A DNA stretch of 64,000 nt from Trichostrongylus colubriformis. Taxonomy: Eukaryota > Nematoda > Chromadorea > Rhabditida > Trichostrongylidae. Position numbers and translations under genes: made by a program. The DNA lies in the NCBI GenBank assembly GCA_963978905.1, contig OZ022256.1, positions 14,677,863-14,741,862 of the forward strand. Reading direction: 5' to 3'. Under the pieces are notes generated by a model. The model did no database searches. It was not told where the DNA came from and worked only from the letters and a program-made list of their open reading frames with translations. Shown here piece by piece: positions 39,786 through 64,000 of the stretch (position 1 is its first letter; every line of letters begins with the position of its first letter).

Positions 39786-39915
39786 GATAGTGTACTGGGT
39801 TAGCACACATGCCCGGAAAGTGTGAAGTGCGGGTTCAAGTCCCGTCCGTCCCCGAAGCTTTTACACATAGCTCAGCATCCTTGTAGTAACCCTACTGAGC
39901 GCTAGAAACCCGTGA
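39786..39915 (+). mobile_element. tRNA-derived SINE
   Basis: Head GGGTTAGCACACATGCCCGG (A box) and GGTTCAAGTCCCG (B box), then the family body CCGAAGCTTTTACACATAGC and TCAGCATCCTTGTAGTAAC. Confidence 0.7.
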
Positions 39916-54638: not shown

Positions 54639-55032
54639 TGTAAGGGCCTTGTCTTTGGTGGGCACTGCCCACTAGCTCCCCAGCACAGTACAGCTCACAG
54701 TGAAGAATACACATTTATTAAGTATAGCAAATGAATAGCTATGGCGACAGAACAAGGGTCTAGCTTCTGGGCTCCAGCCTCCATACTGGGCCCGAGGGTG
54801 GCGGACGAGGTAGAAGCTGGTGATGGGGTCCTCCGGCCCAGGCGATGCTGCCGGTCGTCGTCGGCGTCCGCGTCCTTGTCCCTTGGAGCGCCAATGCTCG
54901 GTCGTCTCCGCCTCCTGCAATCAGCAAAGCTCATCGGAGAAATACCAAAACAATGACCCCCGTCACTCACGACGGGATGGTATCGATTACATAAGGTTAC
55001 AGGGCGAGCCAGAGTCTTACAAGGCCCTTACA
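54639..55032 (-). repeat. 3' LTR, 394 bp
   Basis: Bounded by a 14-nt inverted repeat, TGTAAGGGCCTTGT at one end and ACAAGGCCCTTACA at the other, giving canonical TG...CA termini. It lies directly after a polypurine tract in the minus-strand direction. The partner LTR is outside the assembled sequence, so target-site duplication could not be checked. Confidence 0.85.
54714..54719 (-). terminator. LTR polyadenylation signal
   Basis: AATAAA on the minus strand, inside the 3' LTR and about 75 nt before its end. This is the expected position for the transcript's poly(A) signal. Confidence 0.5.
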
Positions 55033-55044
55033 CCTCCCCCTTTT
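55033..55044 (-). other. Polypurine tract
   Basis: AAAAGGGGGAGG on the minus strand immediately precedes the LTR terminus TGTAAGG. It is the plus-strand primer site used in reverse transcription, and it fixes the LTR boundary and element orientation. Confidence 0.85.
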
Positions 55045-55589
55045 ACCCCAAAACGTCCGTCCTCGGACGTGGACGTTACATACCCGTTCTTTCTCGAGGC
55101 GGTCCGGTCGTTGTCGGTTGAGTGGATGAGGGTCTATCTGAAAATAGGTGATTTTAGTAGCGCACTTATCAACGGATTAAGCAATGAACGATAAGGCGTA
55201 GTCCTAGAAGTGGGGTAGACCCGGTTACCTTGAAGTTGTGTGTACTTCGCCAGGCGGCGAGTGGTGATATTGCGGTGTGTGACATCTGGAGGTGTGAGAT
55301 TCGGCTATGGCTGAAGAGTGCTAAAATTTGGTACGAGAACAATATTTGGTGGTGGCAAATAATTATGGGAAAAGAAGAGTGAACCCTGTAAAACCTACCC
55401 TATTGTTGATGAAACTGCGGCCTGAGGCGGTTCTGACGTTGGCGAGAAAGTGGGAAGTCGGAAAATTGGTGAAGACACCGAAGGAAGCAAGTAAGGGTGG
55501 CGTGGCTCTGAATCACAAATAGATAACGGCGTTCAAATGTATGGTACAAGTAACTGAAAACTTACATGTACAGTGAGGTAGCAGGCGTA
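55045..55589 (-). other. Untranslated segment between helicase ORF and PPT
   Basis: About 545 nt without a supported ORF on the element's coding strand. Confidence 0.5.
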
Positions 55590-58241
55590 TTATTCGAACA
55601 GATCTGGGAGGGCGCCGCGGTCGATGATGACGTTCCTGGCCGAGGCCCACTGCAGGAGACGTCCCCAATTGCCCAACTGACGGAGGGCGTCGGCCTTGCC
55701 GAGCACAAACTGTCCATGTCGGCATCGGGTCACGGCGACGTTCATTCGCTTCGGATCGTCGAGGAACTCTCCCGTCGCGGCCTCCAAGTTCGTTTGCGTC
55801 GTAAGAATGATGACCACATCCATCTCCTTCCCTTGGACCGAGTCGACGGTGTAGAGGTAAACCCCGTGACGGCTGGCTGTCGGTGTCAAGTAGCGTTGCT
55901 GGTCTTTATAAAATGTGATGACGACGATGGAAGTCGGCGCGATTCCCTTGGTTAACAGGTGCCGGACTAGGTCCTCGCAGCAGGCCGCCTCGTCGGTATT
56001 CGAGTACGATTGTGTCGGAGAAGTTTGGGAAGTACCCTCTACATTGACGAAGACAAATGGAAGCGCCTGATTGGGCAGGCGTAGGTTGTCGACGACGAGA
56101 GAACGTTCATTCGGTGAAGTTCCACTCACCAGCGCTCCGCCGTAGAACAGGATATTGGGCAGCTCGTTGAGCGCCGGGTGAGCCCGGAAAGTTGTCACAA
56201 GGGGCGCCAATGGGACGTCCTTGCTGAGCAGAAGCTCCATCACCCCCTTGGCTCCTAAGCGTGCCGCCATCGACGTGCGGGGACAGCGAATGTGCGGCTC
56301 CAATTGATGGACGTCTCCTACGTAAATCTGACGTGCTAGAGGTAGTCGGGCGGTTATGGCGACAAACGCCGGTTCAGGTATCTGGGAGGCTTCGTCTCCC
56401 AGCACAATACGGCAACACGGACGGAGCTCGTGGAAGAGACCTCCGGGCCTGGTGGAATTCAAGAGTGCTGACACCGTCATACAGAGAATGGTTGGGAAAC
56501 GCACTTTCAGCATGATGGCTACGGCCTCCTCGGTGGCGTCGGAGTTGTCATACTCCGCAATTCGGTATTCTTCGCGTTCCTCCTCCGTCATGCCAAATGC
56601 GGCGTTGGGGTCCCTGAGTACACGTTCGATGAGGCTGCGTCCTCTGGCGTAGCGTCTCAGGCGGGCAATCTCTCGTTCCGTTAGTGTGTCAGTAGGGTTG
56701 GCCGCCAGGCCTAGCAGAATCGGGTGTAAGTCCACTGGAGTAGTCGGTGCTCCCTCTCTTATCGCTGTGTCTGCTACAAAGCGGAGTACGCTCAATCGCG
56801 AACGAAACTCGTCGAGTCCCAATAGGGTGTCGGTCAATTGCGCAACAGCGACGTTGGTCGTAGCGGTAGCTACGAGTATTCTCTCTGTCGACGACAGCCG
56901 AGCCGCAATGAGGGCGGCGACGACCGTCTTGCCGGTCCCGAACGCTGCCTGGATTGCCAGTATTGGTCGGTCCTCCATGCCCATGCGAAGAGCTCTAGCT
57001 TGGTCATCGCGGAGGCGAAGCACGTTGCCGCGAAGGCGAATCGAAGTGTTAGACCGGGCTCCAGTGTCGCGTGGCTGGAGAGCTGTGTCCGGCCGCAGGG
57101 GGCTGCCATAAACTTGGTTCATAACCAGCGCCACGTCCGCTGTGGGGCGGCGAAGGGCATCGGCAAATTCTTCCGTGGCCAGAAGGTCGAAGACGGGGTC
57201 CGTGCCCGTATCGGCGCGTCCCAGTCGCAAACAGACGGCGAGATCCGCGGAATCGGCGTTGGCGTGACGGCGTCCGTGACGACGGAGGAGACGGCGGAGA
57301 ATTTCGTGATAGCGCGGCTCGGTAGCAAGTTCCACATCCATTTGTCTATTAGTCATCGTAAATTCCGTACGAGCGATCCGGGTACGGATTACTTTAGTGG
57401 AATCGACAATCCAGACATCGACTGGACGCGAACGGGTCCACCCGCCCTCCGACGACATCACGTTAAGGGTGAAACGGAGGCGGAGGGGGATGTCCTTGAC
57501 GTTCGGCACGCGAGCCACAACGGAATGGGTGGCCCTGTCCTCCATCAGTGTCGTTTGAGCGGCTAGGGCGGCGGTGGCCACAGAGAAGAGTCGACCCATG
57601 CGACTGCGCGCAGTTTCCGGGTGTTGAACGTAATTGGAGAAGACTCCGAGGCGGTCCGCGATCCAGTGTTGGTCGTCGGCGTGCATTCGATCCACATGAA
57701 TAGGTAGTATGGCTTCCTCTGGATGAGCCGGCGAGAAACGGCGAACCTCGTTGACGAGGAAGTTTTGAGATGCTCTGGACACCGGTGAGTGGCAAAATCG
57801 CATTGCGCAGGAGACGTTCGGTCGGGTCTCCACTAGTAAGAAATCCTCCCGCTCGACCTCGCCGTGTTGGAGGGCCGCGGATGAGGCTGGAACGGGAGAC
57901 GGAATAGGTAAAAACCGAGGTGGAGAATGCTGAAGAGAAGAAACGAACTCACCCGCGACAGCGTCCATATCCTCTACCTTCGGTTCCGTGGGAGCTGGAT
58001 CTTGACGAGCGGAGGTCGTTTCCGAAGACGATGACCCAAGTGAAACAGTGTCAAAAAGGTGGGCAGGAGCCCCAGAAGAATGAGAGGCTGAAGGCCGTGT
58101 GTCTGCAAGGGTGACGGTAAAATCGTAATCGGGATCGATATCGAAATCGAAAAGTAGCTCACCGGAAGCTTCACGAGAACGTGAATCGGTTTCGCGAGCA
58201 CCGGCTTCGGCTGGTTCTGGTTTAAGCTTTGTTCGTTTCAT
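55590..58241 (-). CDS. UPF1-like superfamily 1 helicase in LTR retrotransposon
   Basis: 883 codons from the ATG at 58241. Residues 1 to about 120 are acidic and Ser/Pro-rich. The middle region is unassigned, and the C-terminal half is a full SF1 helicase core. Motif I (AAFGTGKT) is near residue 433, motif II (LGDEASQ, the DEAx box) near 614, motif III (GDVHQLEPH) near 640, motif V (TVDSVQGKEMD) near 803 and motif VI (VAVTRCRH) near 835. DEAx together with the GDxxQL and VAxTRCR signatures place it in the UPF1/SENP-like (AAA_11/AAA_12) branch. An ATP-dependent nucleic acid unwinding role is expected; its role in the element is unknown. The frame stays open for 72 codons upstream, but the ATG at 58241 follows a strong acceptor. 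It occupies the env position. Confidence 0.9.
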   Translation of the reverse strand: MKRTKLKPEPAEAGARETDSRSREASGELLFDFDIDPDYDFTVTLADTRPSASHSSGAPAHLFDTVSLGSSSSETTSARQDPAPTEPKVEDMDAVAGEFVSSLQHSPPRFLPIPSPVPASSAALQHGEVEREDFLLVETRPNVSCAMRFCHSPVSRASQNFLVNEVRRFSPAHPEEAILPIHVDRMHADDQHWIADRLGVFSNYVQHPETARSRMGRLFSVATAALAAQTTLMEDRATHSVVARVPNVKDIPLRLRFTLNVMSSEGGWTRSRPVDVWIVDSTKVIRTRIARTEFTMTNRQMDVELATEPRYHEILRRLLRRHGRRHANADSADLAVCLRLGRADTGTDPVFDLLATEEFADALRRPTADVALVMNQVYGSPLRPDTALQPRDTGARSNTSIRLRGNVLRLRDDQARALRMGMEDRPILAIQAAFGTGKTVVAALIAARLSSTERILVATATTNVAVAQLTDTLLGLDEFRSRLSVLRFVADTAIREGAPTTPVDLHPILLGLAANPTDTLTEREIARLRRYARGRSLIERVLRDPNAAFGMTEEEREEYRIAEYDNSDATEEAVAIMLKVRFPTILCMTVSALLNSTRPGGLFHELRPCCRIVLGDEASQIPEPAFVAITARLPLARQIYVGDVHQLEPHIRCPRTSMAARLGAKGVMELLLSKDVPLAPLVTTFRAHPALNELPNILFYGGALVSGTSPNERSLVVDNLRLPNQALPFVFVNVEGTSQTSPTQSYSNTDEAACCEDLVRHLLTKGIAPTSIVVITFYKDQQRYLTPTASRHGVYLYTVDSVQGKEMDVVIILTTQTNLEAATGEFLDDPKRMNVAVTRCRHGQFVLGKADALRQLGNWGRLLQWASARNVIIDRGALPDLFE

Positions 58242-58265
58242 ACGCACTATCTGAAAGAAGTGTGT
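58242..58265 (-). promoter_or_regulatory. Splice acceptor before helicase ATG
   Basis: The minus strand reads CACACTTCTTTCAG|ATAGTGCGTATG, a textbook nematode acceptor 9 nt before the helicase start codon. It would allow a spliced or trans-spliced subgenomic mRNA for the helicase. Confidence 0.6.
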
Positions 58266-58443
58266 AGAGGGGGTGGAGCGCAATGGAACTATGATTACCG
58301 ACGACGGTGCGACAATGCGAGGTACAACTGTTGACAGAAGCAGAAACCGTTGTGACCCAGACGGATGGAAAAAAGGAAAGGTGTCAAGCAAGCAAAGTAT
58401 AGGAAAAAAAGAAGTGTCGTAGTCGTGACGCATGTCTCCGATC

Positions 58444-61400
58444 CTAGCACGAGCCAAGGCGCGTCCTGAAACGAGTGTTGTAAGTGTGTGAAATGGGCAC
58501 CCGTGAAGATTTATTGTCTTGAGTGGGTAAGAATGTGTGCGAATACCCTACCATCGCAATCGGTTTTGCTTCCACGGTCGCTAGTGCGTTCGTTTCTTCA
58601 TGTGGTAGCCAAGGGGACGTAAAGACGGGGCCCGACAGGGTGAAACATTTTTTGACCTGATTCATGTGCACTACTCTGGGCTTGGATTGAGGCGAGGTAA
58701 TGCTGACGACGGTGAGGTGAGGATGATCTACCGCAATGACCCGGAATTGACCTAACCACGGATAACAAAGTTTCGCCGATAGTCCAACCTTAGGGGTAAA
58801 GTCGCGTAAGTAGACGCGATCACCCACTGCAATAGAGAGGGTGGGCAGGCCGCATTTGTCGTATTGCTGCTTCATGGCCGCGCTGCGACGTAGGTTGTGC
58901 TCCGCGGCGGTCGTCCAAACCGCATGTAGGGTGCGCACGAGAGACTCCTTGTACACGCTGCTGTCCAAATCCGAGGGCACATGCCTTTGCAGCGCATGCC
59001 GGATAAGGAGGTCGATGTTAAGAACCGGGTCGCGCCCAAACATGAGAAAAAATGGGGATTCGTTGGTGCTGCTGTGGATGGACGTGTTGTATGCGAGCGT
59101 GCAGGCGGGTAAAAATAAGTCCCAATCCGACTGATCAGACTTGATGTAGATTCGCAGCATTTCTTGGAAGGTAGCGAATACCCGCTCGCATGCCCCGTTG
59201 CCCTCATGGTGGTAAGGGGTGGTAAAGTACCGGCCTATGCCGAGAAGACGTCCGAGCTCGGACATGAGGTCACCTTTAAGGTAAGATGCGTTATCCGAGA
59301 CGAGAATGGTCATAGCCCCGAAAACGAAGACGCAATGGTTCACTACCGCATGAGCTACCGTAATGGCCTGGCAGTCTGGTAGTGCCGCGGCGATGACGAA
59401 TTTTGTGAAGTGGTCGATAAGGCAGATGATATATTTGTTACCGCGCGGCGTGCAATGGTAAGGACCGCTAATGTCGAGGTACACCTTGTCGAACACGGCG
59501 CCCGCGTGGACCGGAATCATCAGTTCCCTTGAGAGGGGGTGCGGGCGTTTACGCTGGCACGCCTCGCAGGACCGCACGAAGCTAAAAACGTCTTCGCGCA
59601 TCGAGGGCCAAAAGAACCGTCGGCTTATCTTTGCTAACGTCTTTTTCCAGCTAAAGTGACCGCCTGCGGAGGGACTATCGTGGAGAGCCAAGCAGATAGG
59701 TTCGCGGAGCCGTTGCGGAACGAAAATGGCGGGTGACCGGTGCTGTTTGGGGTCAGCATAGTAGAGGCAACCGTTGGGTTTGATTAGGCAGCGGTCGGCC
59801 CATCGAAGGCCAAGGTTCTTGATGTCCTGAGTCACACCCGGCGGGAATGTACCTGTGTCGAGCAAATGCATGATGGCACTACAAAGAGGGTCGTCCTTCT
59901 GGGCGAGTAATGCGTCGTATGGGCGAACATACAGTGGAGGGGCTAGGCGAGGAGCGGCAGCCGCTGCGGGTGAGCGCCGAGTGGATGAAGCCGGGGGTTG
60001 CTGCACAAGACAGTGAGGAAACTCAATAATGTCGTCACACTCCGATGTGCCGTCTACGAACTGCTGAGCGGGATTGGAATTGCGGCTGAGGTGGTCGGCG
60101 ATTACGTTGGAAGAGCCCTTCTGGTAGTCGATGGAAATATCGTAGCTCTGGAGCTCGACTACCCAACGAGCGAGGTGGTCGTGTGGCTTACGATGACGTA
60201 AGAGAAAGGTCAAGGGTCGATGGTCGCAGAGAATGCGGGTGTGGTTACCGTATATAGTGGGACGGAAAAAGCGAAGCGCGCTAATCATAGCGAAAAGCTC
60301 TATGTGAGTGGGGCTCCACTTTTGTTGTGACGGGGACAGCGTCTTACTAAAATATCCGATAGCCACCGGCGGCTGGGTGGTGTCATGCACCTGAAGAAGG
60401 GCGGCCCCAACTGCCACCTTGCTCCCATCGGTGTGAAGGATGAACTCCTGATCCCGCGGGAAAGCCAGACACGGCCGACTGGTTAAAGCGTCCTTTAACT
60501 GGGCAAAAGCCGCCGCCTGGGATTTATCCCAGCGAAACGGTACCTTATCCTTGCATAGTTCGTATAGCGGGGCGGCGATGGCAGCGAAATCCTTGACAAA
60601 ACGGCGGAAAAAATTAGCCATACCTAGGAAACTCTTGACCGCCCGAACTGAGGTGGGTTCCGGTAGGTCCCGAATGGCCTTGATATTGCGTTCCGCCGGG
60701 GTGTAGGAGGAGGCCGAAATCTCATGGCCGAGAAAAGTGATTTTAGATTGTGCCACGCTAGTTAGCTTTTTCCCGGAGATTTTGATATTGAAAATGCGGA
60801 ACCTGTCCAACACCTTGCGCAGCGATTGCAAGTGGGAGTCAAAGTTGTTATCGAAAACGATAATATCGTCGATGTAGGCCAAACAATTGTCATCGAGTCC
60901 CGACAAAATGCGAGCCATTGCCCTACAAAAGTAAGCACCCGCGTTGCGAAGTCCAAAAGGAAGGTAGACAAATTGATAAATACCGCGGTGAGTGGACCAC
61001 CCGCATTTGGCCTGGCTCTCGGGAGAGAGGAGTAACTGCATATAACCCGACGCAAGGTCAAAGGTGGTATAGAATCGCTTGCCAGAGACCCGTTGAAGCA
61101 TATCGTCGATACGGGGTAACGGGTAGCGGTCCGGGATGGTAATGTCGTTAAGGGGTCGGAAATCGAGGCAAACTCTCAGCGACCCATCTTTCTTTTTGAC
61201 CAATACCGTGTTATGGAGCCAAGGGGTGTCGCTTTCCACAATGCGACCCGCCTTGAGAAGCTTGTCGATGTGGTCGTCAAGTTCCTTCTGGAAACGGGCC
61301 GGTATCCGAGTGGGACGATAACGTGACGGAGGCACCTCAGTGGTGGTTTTGATGGTGATGGGATTGAGGTCATACGACCCTAAGTCGTACGCCGACCAAG

Positions 61401-61689
61401 AGATGCGGTCTTGGTACTCTTGGAAGAGGTCCAGAAGCTGTTGCCTTTGCTCCGGTGTGACTTCTGCCTGAGTAAGGTCGAGAGAAAGCTGTGGGGCTGC
61501 AGGCGGTGATGGAGAGGAGCTCAGAGAAGAGACCGGGGCTGTGCTAAAACCGCTGGTGTAGCTCCATGACTGTGCCGTCTGGTAGGTCGAGGACGGGATA
61601 AGCCGTCGTGACGCGTTGTCCTTTGTAGACAATCTTTGGTGTGTCTGTTGGATTGCTGAGATACAGCCGGGGGTTACTGACATTAACAA
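58444..61689 (-). CDS. pol: Pol polyprotein: RT, RNase H, integrase
   Basis: About 1081 codons. Reverse transcriptase has LPFGLRNAGAYF and the catalytic YIDD near residue 270; RNase H has LHTDGS near 418 and the later CDHRPL; integrase has an HHCC zinc finger (H...GGHFSW...CEACQRK, about 665-715). The catalytic triad is D (YLDISG, about 735), D (SDNASY, about 796) and E (GNGACE, about 831), the last two 35 residues apart (DD35E). No chromodomain was recognised. The frame begins within the protease frame (overlap 61544-61689) and no ATG is required; expression likely needs a +1 shift or equivalent. It ends just before the helicase reading frame. Confidence 0.93.
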   Translation of the reverse strand: MLMSVTPGCISAIQQTHQRLSTKDNASRRLIPSSTYQTAQSWSYTSGFSTAPVSSLSSSPSPPAAPQLSLDLTQAEVTPEQRQQLLDLFQEYQDRISWSAYDLGSYDLNPITIKTTTEVPPSRYRPTRIPARFQKELDDHIDKLLKAGRIVESDTPWLHNTVLVKKKDGSLRVCLDFRPLNDITIPDRYPLPRIDDMLQRVSGKRFYTTFDLASGYMQLLLSPESQAKCGWSTHRGIYQFVYLPFGLRNAGAYFCRAMARILSGLDDNCLAYIDDIIVFDNNFDSHLQSLRKVLDRFRIFNIKISGKKLTSVAQSKITFLGHEISASSYTPAERNIKAIRDLPEPTSVRAVKSFLGMANFFRRFVKDFAAIAAPLYELCKDKVPFRWDKSQAAAFAQLKDALTSRPCLAFPRDQEFILHTDGSKVAVGAALLQVHDTTQPPVAIGYFSKTLSPSQQKWSPTHIELFAMISALRFFRPTIYGNHTRILCDHRPLTFLLRHRKPHDHLARWVVELQSYDISIDYQKGSSNVIADHLSRNSNPAQQFVDGTSECDDIIEFPHCLVQQPPASSTRRSPAAAAAPRLAPPLYVRPYDALLAQKDDPLCSAIMHLLDTGTFPPGVTQDIKNLGLRWADRCLIKPNGCLYYADPKQHRSPAIFVPQRLREPICLALHDSPSAGGHFSWKKTLAKISRRFFWPSMREDVFSFVRSCEACQRKRPHPLSRELMIPVHAGAVFDKVYLDISGPYHCTPRGNKYIICLIDHFTKFVIAAALPDCQAITVAHAVVNHCVFVFGAMTILVSDNASYLKGDLMSELGRLLGIGRYFTTPYHHEGNGACERVFATFQEMLRIYIKSDQSDWDLFLPACTLAYNTSIHSSTNESPFFLMFGRDPVLNIDLLIRHALQRHVPSDLDSSVYKESLVRTLHAVWTTAAEHNLRRSAAMKQQYDKCGLPTLSIAVGDRVYLRDFTPKVGLSAKLCYPWLGQFRVIAVDHPHLTVVSITSPQSKPRVVHMNQVKKCFTLSGPVFTSPWLPHEETNALATVEAKPIAMVGYSHTFLPTQDNKSSRVPISHTYNTRFRTRLGSC

Positions 61690-62448
61690 GCGTAGGGGTG
61701 ACCATGATGTTGTCCGGGCAGATTATGGTCCCTTCTAGTAGGAGCGCGGACCATGAGACGTCCGCGTCACCCACCTGGCCCGGCACGATCACCTCGGAGG
61801 CTGGCGGAATGACCGTAGTCGAAGCGACGCAAACGGGCAGCGGGCGGCCGCGATTGGTCGACAGCTCCGCTGGCGATGACGTAGCGCCGAGAATGGGGAC
61901 GGGCTCGCCGCCGATCAACAATGTCCGCTGTGCGTAATGTAGCGCCCAAAGAGGGAGTCGCTGCAGGAGATCATTTCCGAAAATGACATTATAGGCGTCG
62001 ACTGCGCGGGGAACGCAGTCGATTTCCGTAAAATGGACGATGTGGTCCAGGGAGTGTTTGCCTACCTGAAACGCGACCGAAGCAGAACCCACAAACTTAA
62101 CTGGTATTCCCGACATGCCCACCGCAGCTGTCACTTGGCAGGGGTTGAGATGAAAAATCCCCAATAGGGGAAGCAAGGAACGGGAAGCTATGGTTATTCC
62201 GGCTCCGGTGTCTATCAGCGCCAGCATGTGGACCCCATTGGCCCGAATAGGGATTTGAGCCACGAAGTAGGGCAGTGGGCCGTCCAGCGAGAGGACGTCC
62301 ACCTGTACAACGGAGGCTCGAGGGGGCCAAACCGAGGTCGCATCAATTTCGACCTGTGAGATGTCTAACGATATTGGTGGCCTGGCGCGGGGCAGGGCTG
62401 GAACCGGGATTGGAGGGAGTACGAGAGGCGTACTAGCAGTGAAAGGCT
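61544..62448 (-). CDS. Gag-pro frame, 3' part with aspartic protease
   Basis: The frame is open from the N gap to a stop at 61544. It contains the retropepsin-type signature LALIDTGAGITIAS (DTG near 62205) and, about 70 residues later, a VIFGNDLL hydrophobic-Gly segment typical of the second half of the protease. Upstream is a proline-rich linker (VLPPIPVPALPRARPPI). Gag itself lies in or beyond the gap. The last 146 nt overlap pol, which is in the +1 frame. Confidence 0.85.
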
Positions 62449-62648
62449 NNNNNNNNNNNNNNNNNNNNNNNNNNNNNNNNNNNNNNNNNNNNNNNNNNNN
62501 NNNNNNNNNNNNNNNNNNNNNNNNNNNNNNNNNNNNNNNNNNNNNNNNNNNNNNNNNNNNNNNNNNNNNNNNNNNNNNNNNNNNNNNNNNNNNNNNNNNN
62601 NNNNNNNNNNNNNNNNNNNNNNNNNNNNNNNNNNNNNNNNNNNNNNNN
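62449..62648. other. Assembly gap (200 N)
   Basis: Exactly 200 unknown bases, probably a nominal scaffold gap. The retrotransposon is cut here, and the sequence on the other side belongs to a LINE, so an unknown length may be missing. Confidence 0.98.
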
Positions 62649-63177: not shown

Positions 63178-64000
63178 ATGTTGACGCTATTTTGATCATT
63201 AGAACCCCTAGTGTGGAAGAATCATATGTGCTGCACGTATTTCAAAAAAGAAGCTGCTTTTTAGCACTGGTTGAGAAGATCACGTCATTGCGTTAAAGGA
63301 CTTCTAAAAACTCATAATTACCGCTGAAATATATAGTAATCCTGCGGAGAGACCAGTATCTGAAGCCTGCTTTTCATTCAACGTAGAAGGTGAATCATTC
63401 AAACACGCACGGGTGAATCGGATTATTGTGGCGTGTTGCGAAAAATTCATGTATTTCATGTGTATACACGAGTGAGTCGGATCATTGCGGCGAAAAATTC
63501 ATGCATTTCATGTGAACGCCATCATCAGCATGTTTTCTGCATGCGACTGTAACTGTGTACGGAACGTCATGGCGCCCAGCGCGGTCCACGCCAAAGATCC
63601 GCTTTAGTATGCAGAGCTACCAGCCAAACACAAGCATTGTGAAGATTACAAGGTGTTAGCTCAGAATGCAGATTGTAACTAAAGATAGAGACTCAGGTGG
63701 GAAGCGTCAAAAGAAGCGCACACTCCTCAGGCTCTCTTTGTCATCACTTCTGCATTTTCATCGAAAACAGCCGAGTGAATCACATTCATCGATAAAAACA
63801 TTAAGTGACAATCGTTGCCGGTGCCGATCGCCACCACCGACGCAAATTTCGAACAAACGCGTATCGATCACAAAGACTCAAAAACGTTTTGGAAGAATAA
63901 CACGCGTTCACTTACTGTTTTGCACTGGCAATTGTTGTACGGACATCTTGATGCATGACCCTTCAAGACCACCTGCAAACCATGTCCTTCGCATTTTCTA
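63178..64000 (-). repeat. Duplicated DM-intron/exon block, copy B
   Basis: Copy of 31585-32402 that continues to the window edge. Homology starts abruptly at about 63178, next to the LINE fragment. From 63370 on the two copies differ by only a few substitutions and small indels. Confidence 0.9.
63916..64000 (-). CDS. Second copy of the DM-domain exon (partial)
   Basis: 85 nt of exon with an intact donor (ACA|GTAAGTG) encode the same [20 protein letters not shown] and NNCQCKT as 32325-32409, without a single change in the visible part. No second half of the DM domain ([14 protein letters not shown]) follows on this side: the LINE fragment and gap lie there instead. It is either a truncated duplicate or an allele separated by assembly. 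Confidence 0.75.

Follow-up and report, generated by a model that had tools for sequence, protein, structure and literature searches.

Several groups of retroelements are known to carry genes in addition to gag and pol. The nematode long terminal repeat (LTR) retrotransposon Cer1 contains a large open reading frame (ORF) between pol and the 3' LTR, CERV; it is expressed from a spliced mRNA that also contains gag sequence, and export of the genomic RNA depends on it (PMC10309623). TRAS and Jockey long interspersed nuclear elements (LINEs) of insects, as well as Ty1/copia fusions, have acquired superfamily 1 (SF1) helicases with conserved motifs (PMC5563155, PMC6338049), LTR retrotransposons of bdelloid rotifers encode non-envelope enzymes in an ORF3 after pol (PMC5408684), and the LTR element Anakin possesses a chuvirus-type glycoprotein (PMC7642597). 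Here we analysed a stretch of 64,000 nucleotides (the window) of Trichostrongylus colubriformis contig OZ022256.1, which contains the 3' half of a Ty3/gypsy-type LTR retroelement with a third gene, a UPF1-like superfamily 1B (SF1B) helicase, located between pol and the polypurine tract plus 3' LTR. The means by which unspliced retroelement RNA avoids being retained in the nucleus and degraded are an open question, and this element may hold the answer in its own sequence, as a UPF1 relative amenable to expression and testing in isolation.

Anatomy of the helicase-bearing element

All coordinates given below are window positions, and all features of the element lie on the minus strand in the order protease ORF (cut by an assembly gap), pol, helicase ORF, unassigned stretch, polypurine tract and LTR. 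The helicase ORF (55590..58241) comprises 883 codons from the ATG at 58241, its frame being open from 58457 in the ORF list; the chance of 883 stop-free codons at such a composition is about 10^-12.6. It is preceded by the pol ORF (58444..61689, from the ORF list and Pfam), which encodes reverse transcriptase (RT, with YIDD), ribonuclease H (RNase H) and integrase. The helicase stop is followed by a stretch with no ORF assigned (55045..55589), by the polypurine tract AAAAGGGGGAGG (55033..55044) and, directly after it, by the 3' LTR of 382 bp (54651..55032), which starts with TGTAAG, carries AATAAA and matches the paired LTRs of the closest copy, L009 at C3:46469648, at 96.9% over 382 bp. The first-pass annotation of this stretch had described a helicase with all SF1 motifs on the same strand between pol and a clear polypurine tract and 3' LTR, which the ORFs, Pfam matches and motifs bear out. 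Both terminal features are indeed present, although the LTR (55032-54651) lies outside the span 55590..62448 to which they had been assigned. The paired LTRs of the closest copy also refute the alternative that this is the solo LTR of a foreign element. An LTR of 394 bp with 13-bp terminal repeats was considered and rejected, as the family LTR ends in ACT before the primer-binding site and the last 12 bases of that candidate in the window are flank. These 12 bases adjoining the 3' LTR (54639-54650) are an inverted copy of the LTR start.

A helicase search of the same genome (331 Mb, 52 contigs), in which 48 of 565 candidates were scored, gave at least 49 matches; among those listed, the majority are free of internal stops and some contain them. 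Flanks were retrieved for 13 copies, which were chosen through these helicase matches by following the list from the window onwards and passing over shorter partial ones. Ten copies were covered over 9.9 kb on the upstream side and 3 kb on the downstream side and then over another 3 kb outwards, and three more in the same way. Pol of the same lineage is present upstream on the same strand in all 13 (111 to 1011 residues aligned), and in 12 of them an LTR pair flanks both genes, which is the co-occurrence in several copies that the first-pass annotation proposed to test. With both genes enclosed by LTRs in these 12 copies, the helicase belongs to a mobile unit and is not a one-off arrangement, and we regard the anatomy of the helicase-bearing element as practically certain. 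Between paired LTRs the order in these copies is gag, glycoprotein-like segment, protease, RT-RNase H-integrase and helicase; an N-terminal domain of the helicase (N-domain) is present in 13 copies, gag in 11, and protease and the glycoprotein segment in 10. A primer-binding site occurs in 11 of the 13 copies, with TGGTAGCAGCGA at the end of the 5' LTR in each of these 11, and 4-bp target duplications match in 8/11 copies under a fixed rule (in nine if one LTR start is placed where the near-copy of that element has it). Element length is about 12.6 to 15.1 kb in ten of the 11 copies with a primer-binding site and 7.8 kb in the rearranged one. A G-rich tract precedes the 3' LTR in all 12 LTR-paired copies, being shorter in C3:43666974 and C5:51219703. 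Gag and protease were not found in the unpaired copy (C5:22102728), the copy at C5:17060007 is rearranged and short, and that at C3:48308756 has little pol left and LTRs which are 82% alike; the remaining 11 LTR pairs are 98.6 to 100% identical. Two partial helicases, L003 and L007 (C7:48075642+ and C7:48078265-), lie about 1 kb apart in opposite orientation, each 98% identical to that of the window.

Compared with the closest copy, the helicase of the window copy lacks 1110 bp (370 codons, in frame; junction at 57864..57864 by blastn against L009 and L002), which include the whole family N-domain, while the helicase core is intact. The earlier description of an intact helicase with no inactivating change therefore holds for the core and fails for the N-terminal part, and this copy may be a partly disabled derivative. 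The N-domain is present in the T. colubriformis protein P0046, which shows 100% identity to the window ORF across 126 residues starting exactly at the methionine at 58241. On the other side, the aspartic protease ORF (61544..62448, with DTGA) is cut by a 200-N assembly gap (62449..62648), the left contig ending at 62448 inside it. In the 9.5 kb to the right of this gap no match to gag, glycoprotein, pol or LTR was found, and hence the 5' half of the window copy (gag, glycoprotein and 5' LTR) is not seen. Two near-identical direct repeats of 25 bases, 52 bases apart, are located there at 63438-63514. Elsewhere in the window, a partial tRNA-like match of 30.3 bits lies at 39788-39845, where ARAGORN finds no tRNA.

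Pol matches the Pfam families RVT_1, RNase H and integrase H2C2. The order protease, RT, RNase H and integrase, together with Ty3 Gag-Pol as the best solved match (1.3e-110, best of 26 listed), assigns the element to Ty3/gypsy. The RT frame is +1 relative to protease in the window and in 9/10 copies with both motifs, and a frameshift peculiar to the window is thus rejected; no slip site was identified. In the closest copy, L009, the relation is +2, unlike the window and the nine other copies.

The glycoprotein segment is known from the other copies only, and its counterpart in the window would fall in the N gap. It lies between gag and protease in 10/13 copies (793-4998 of L011 and the same place in nine others), and nine of the ten have it in frame with gag; gag, the cysteine-rich segment and protease share one frame of at least 1222 residues in 9/13 copies. 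All five ORFs scanned, or parts of them, match the Monjiviricetes fusion glycoprotein family at 1e-5 to 3.5e-3, all under its 27-bit cut-off. In five aligned ORFs, including two near-copy pairs, 23 cysteines are invariant over the whole ORF and the zinc knuckle is followed by a signal-like hydrophobic segment; in four of the five a second hydrophobic segment before the protease passes the threshold. The zinc-knuckle cut-off is passed by two of three full gag-protease ORFs scanned, near-copies counted once. The segment is likely to be a chuvirus-like envelope in an unusual place: we know of no gene order in print with a glycoprotein between gag and protease, and none is named in the literature listings. 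The helicase had been said to occupy the env position; if a replacement of env was meant, that wording is not supported, in view of the env-like glycoprotein upstream of protease in 10/13 copies.

The helicase protein, its relatives and its history

The window helicase matches AAA_12 at 7.7e-38 and AAA_11 in Pfam, and SF1 motifs I to VI are all present (GTGKT, DEASQ, GDVHQL, TTFRAHP, VDSVQGKE and RMNVAVTRCRHG). The Walker A lysine is kept in 24/26 aligned rows, and the catalytic residues are conserved in nearly all rows with residues at those positions. UPF1 is the closest solved structure by sequence and by fold, in agreement with the UPF1-type assignment made initially; UPF1 and SEN1 outscore ZNFX1, which is still near in both respects. 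No Pfam match to the zinc (CH) domain of UPF1 was obtained for the window protein (E up to 10) or for the relative P0005 (E up to 0.01), and residues 73-480 of the window protein contain 3 cysteines. Judged by these matches, the protein is classed as a UPF1-like SF1B helicase without the UPF1 zinc domain by Pfam and with a family-specific N-domain in its place. A viral-type SF1 helicase was rejected: Viral_helicase1 passes its cut-off with 7.9e-05, yet this match spans just 54 residues, compared with 7.7e-38 for AAA_12.

Three overlapping protein searches returned 34, 19 and 19 proteins. Forty-seven database proteins belong to this helicase family, all from strongylid nematodes of nine genera (Haemonchus, Ancylostoma, Nippostrongylus, Heligmosomoides, Teladorsagia, Trichostrongylus, Oesophagostomum, Ostertagia and Cylicocyclus), and a further six proteins are distantly related SF1 helicases. 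Gene models in which the helicase is fused to such a pol or gag account for five of the 47 (Nippostrongylus P0004, Trichostrongylus P0023, Heligmosomoides P0029, Oesophagostomum P0044 and Haemonchus P0045), pol or gag being upstream in each; in P0029 another piece of integrase comes after the helicase. In the clearest, P0044, a membrane segment leads into protease, RT and integrase (69% identity across 990 residues), and these into the N-domain. Pfam matches to the gag part of P0045 are weak, although this part matches the gag of the T. colubriformis copies at about 42 to 60%. In a tree of the 47 relatives and the window, the six pol- or gag-joined members lie on both sides of the deepest drawn split and cluster no more strongly than shuffled labels; detection of such joins depends on gene models, and the tree shows spread, not rate. 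An expanded set of helicase domains has been reported among the genes of H. contortus (PMC4054779). This expansion in a strongylid parasite may partly consist of these mobile-element genes.

Distances between copies in pol and in the helicase N-domain correlate at r 0.984 (11 copies; 0/5000 permutations as high), and at r 0.961 when one copy is taken from each of six families (4/720 permutations). Such co-divergence indicates that the helicase shares its history with pol. In two close copy pairs the ratio of nonsynonymous to synonymous change (dN/dS) is 0.245 and 0.104 for the helicase core and 0.147 and 0.382 for pol, which shows purifying selection on the helicase core in the two pairs tested. 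At deep distances, where synonymous sites are saturated, nonsynonymous change in the helicase is about twice that of pol.

Expression and possible function

A predicted 3' splice site (58242..58256), TTTCAG followed by ATAGTGCGT, stands 9 bases before the ATG at 58241 and ranks third of 357 AG sites in the element with a C. elegans matrix. Sites of similar score occur 5 to 43 bases before an ATG in 8/11 other copies, and a weaker one in another; the remaining two, the closest copy among them, have none. Because of these acceptor-like sites, the gag-helicase join in the Haemonchus model P0045 and the parallel with CERV, we predict a spliced helicase mRNA, in which a donor near or in gag would be joined to the acceptor just before the ATG. 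No clear donor was found in the copies scanned. What weighs against this arrangement is that the ATG after the acceptor opens the long helicase frame in only three of the eight copies that have the site. In the other five the frame stops after 42 to 162 codons; three of these five form the C3:24569225 group, and in two of the three a second acceptor follows, as if an intron lay inside the helicase gene. In copies L021, L023 and L025 (C3:24569225, C1:29688652 and C1:155471), about 1.7 kb separate the pol stop from the long helicase frame; this interval, with its strong acceptor-like sites, may contain an intron.

Beyond anatomy, history and selection, the mechanism outlined here is what we infer. 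The full-length RNA of the element would contain a long stretch after its first stop codon and retained splice sites, and on both counts it should be held in the nucleus or decayed. The helicase would load on this RNA. UPF1 binds UPF2 through its zinc domain; a helicase without that domain would hold the RNA without triggering decay, leaving it free for export, translation and packaging. To the reading as a whole, a third-gene helicase from spliced mRNA which acts on unspliced genomic RNA and brings it past the RNA surveillance of the worm, we give an evenly balanced probability, and to the surveillance-escape role alone one somewhat short of even. A more ambitious version is possible but rather doubtful: a distinct strongylid lineage (gag, chuvirus-like fusion glycoprotein, protease, RT-integrase and UPF1-like helicase), the first known retroelements to encode a UPF1-family helicase, whose product would be a decoy displacing host UPF1 on genomic RNA and so switching surveillance off, with the envelope moved upstream into the gag frame.

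The helicase might instead suppress small-RNA silencing, either by acting on guide-target or double-stranded RNA, which it would unwind or displace, or as a competitor of the host helicases in that pathway; we consider this rather unlikely. ZNFX1 is a small-RNA helicase, and its nearness in sequence and fold favours such a role, as does the excess of deep nonsynonymous change over pol, which arms-race genes may show; however, UPF1 and SEN1 score above ZNFX1. Strongylid LTR retrotransposons have also been tied to worm Argonaute small RNAs (PMC13195028), and SF1 helicases of insect retrotransposons are reported as weak silencing suppressors in plants (PMC6338049). Action within the particle, where the helicase would unwind the genomic RNA or RNA-DNA hybrids while the RNA is packaged or reverse-transcribed, is still less probable in our view. 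It would suit the presence of the gene in one element with gag and pol, the link to gag in P0045, and the fact that SF1B relatives act on RNA and RNA-DNA. However, the helicase stands in its own frame after the pol stop with an acceptor-like site in many copies and so is not simply part of gag-pol, and, to our knowledge, Ty3-type elements otherwise do without such a gene.

Were the helicase a neutral passenger that was captured a single time and is now in decay, this might account for the loss of the N-domain in the window copy, the stops in some matches of the same genome and the short frames before the helicase in several copies. Such a passenger is very improbable given the low dN/dS (0.10 and 0.25) in the two close pairs, the retained catalytic residues and the fact that the majority of the 49 listed matches keep a long open frame. 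The helicase-domain expansion in H. contortus genes (PMC4054779) would also fit an ordinary host helicase gene that lies by chance beside a retroelement or is interrupted by one. We find this barely credible, since same-strand pol lies upstream in 13/13 copies, an outer LTR pair is present in 12/13 and matching duplications in 8/11, pol and helicase diverge together, and five gene models, each from a different genus, have pol or gag ahead of the helicase. A host gene beside the element is refuted for the 12 LTR-paired copies.

Comparison with known systems

Like Cer1, the element belongs to the LTR elements of nematodes and has a large ORF that separates pol from the 3' LTR, and the gag-joined spliced layout of Cer1 is matched here by gene model P0045. 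However, CERV is described as having no obvious homology outside Caenorhabditis, while the present ORF is a recognisable UPF1-like helicase, and Cer1 has no stop between gag and pol, unlike the present element (PMC10309623). The helicases of insect elements are of viral SF1 type, with an origin in plus-strand RNA viruses, and are found mostly in LINEs (PMC5563155, PMC6338049), whereas here an SF1B protein of UPF1 type is encoded by a separate ORF of a Ty3-type element with paired LTRs. ORF3 of the bdelloid elements is a GDSL esterase or a DEDDy exonuclease, and the available part of that report does not mention a UPF1-like helicase (PMC5408684). Anakin has a BEL-Pao pol (PMC7642597), in contrast to the Ty3-type pol found here together with a glycoprotein upstream of protease in the gag frame and a helicase. 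Finally, cellular UPF1 (SMG-2) shares the SF1B core and is the best match in sequence and fold among solved chains, but the helicase of this element has no detected zinc (CH) domain and carries instead an N-domain found only in strongylids.
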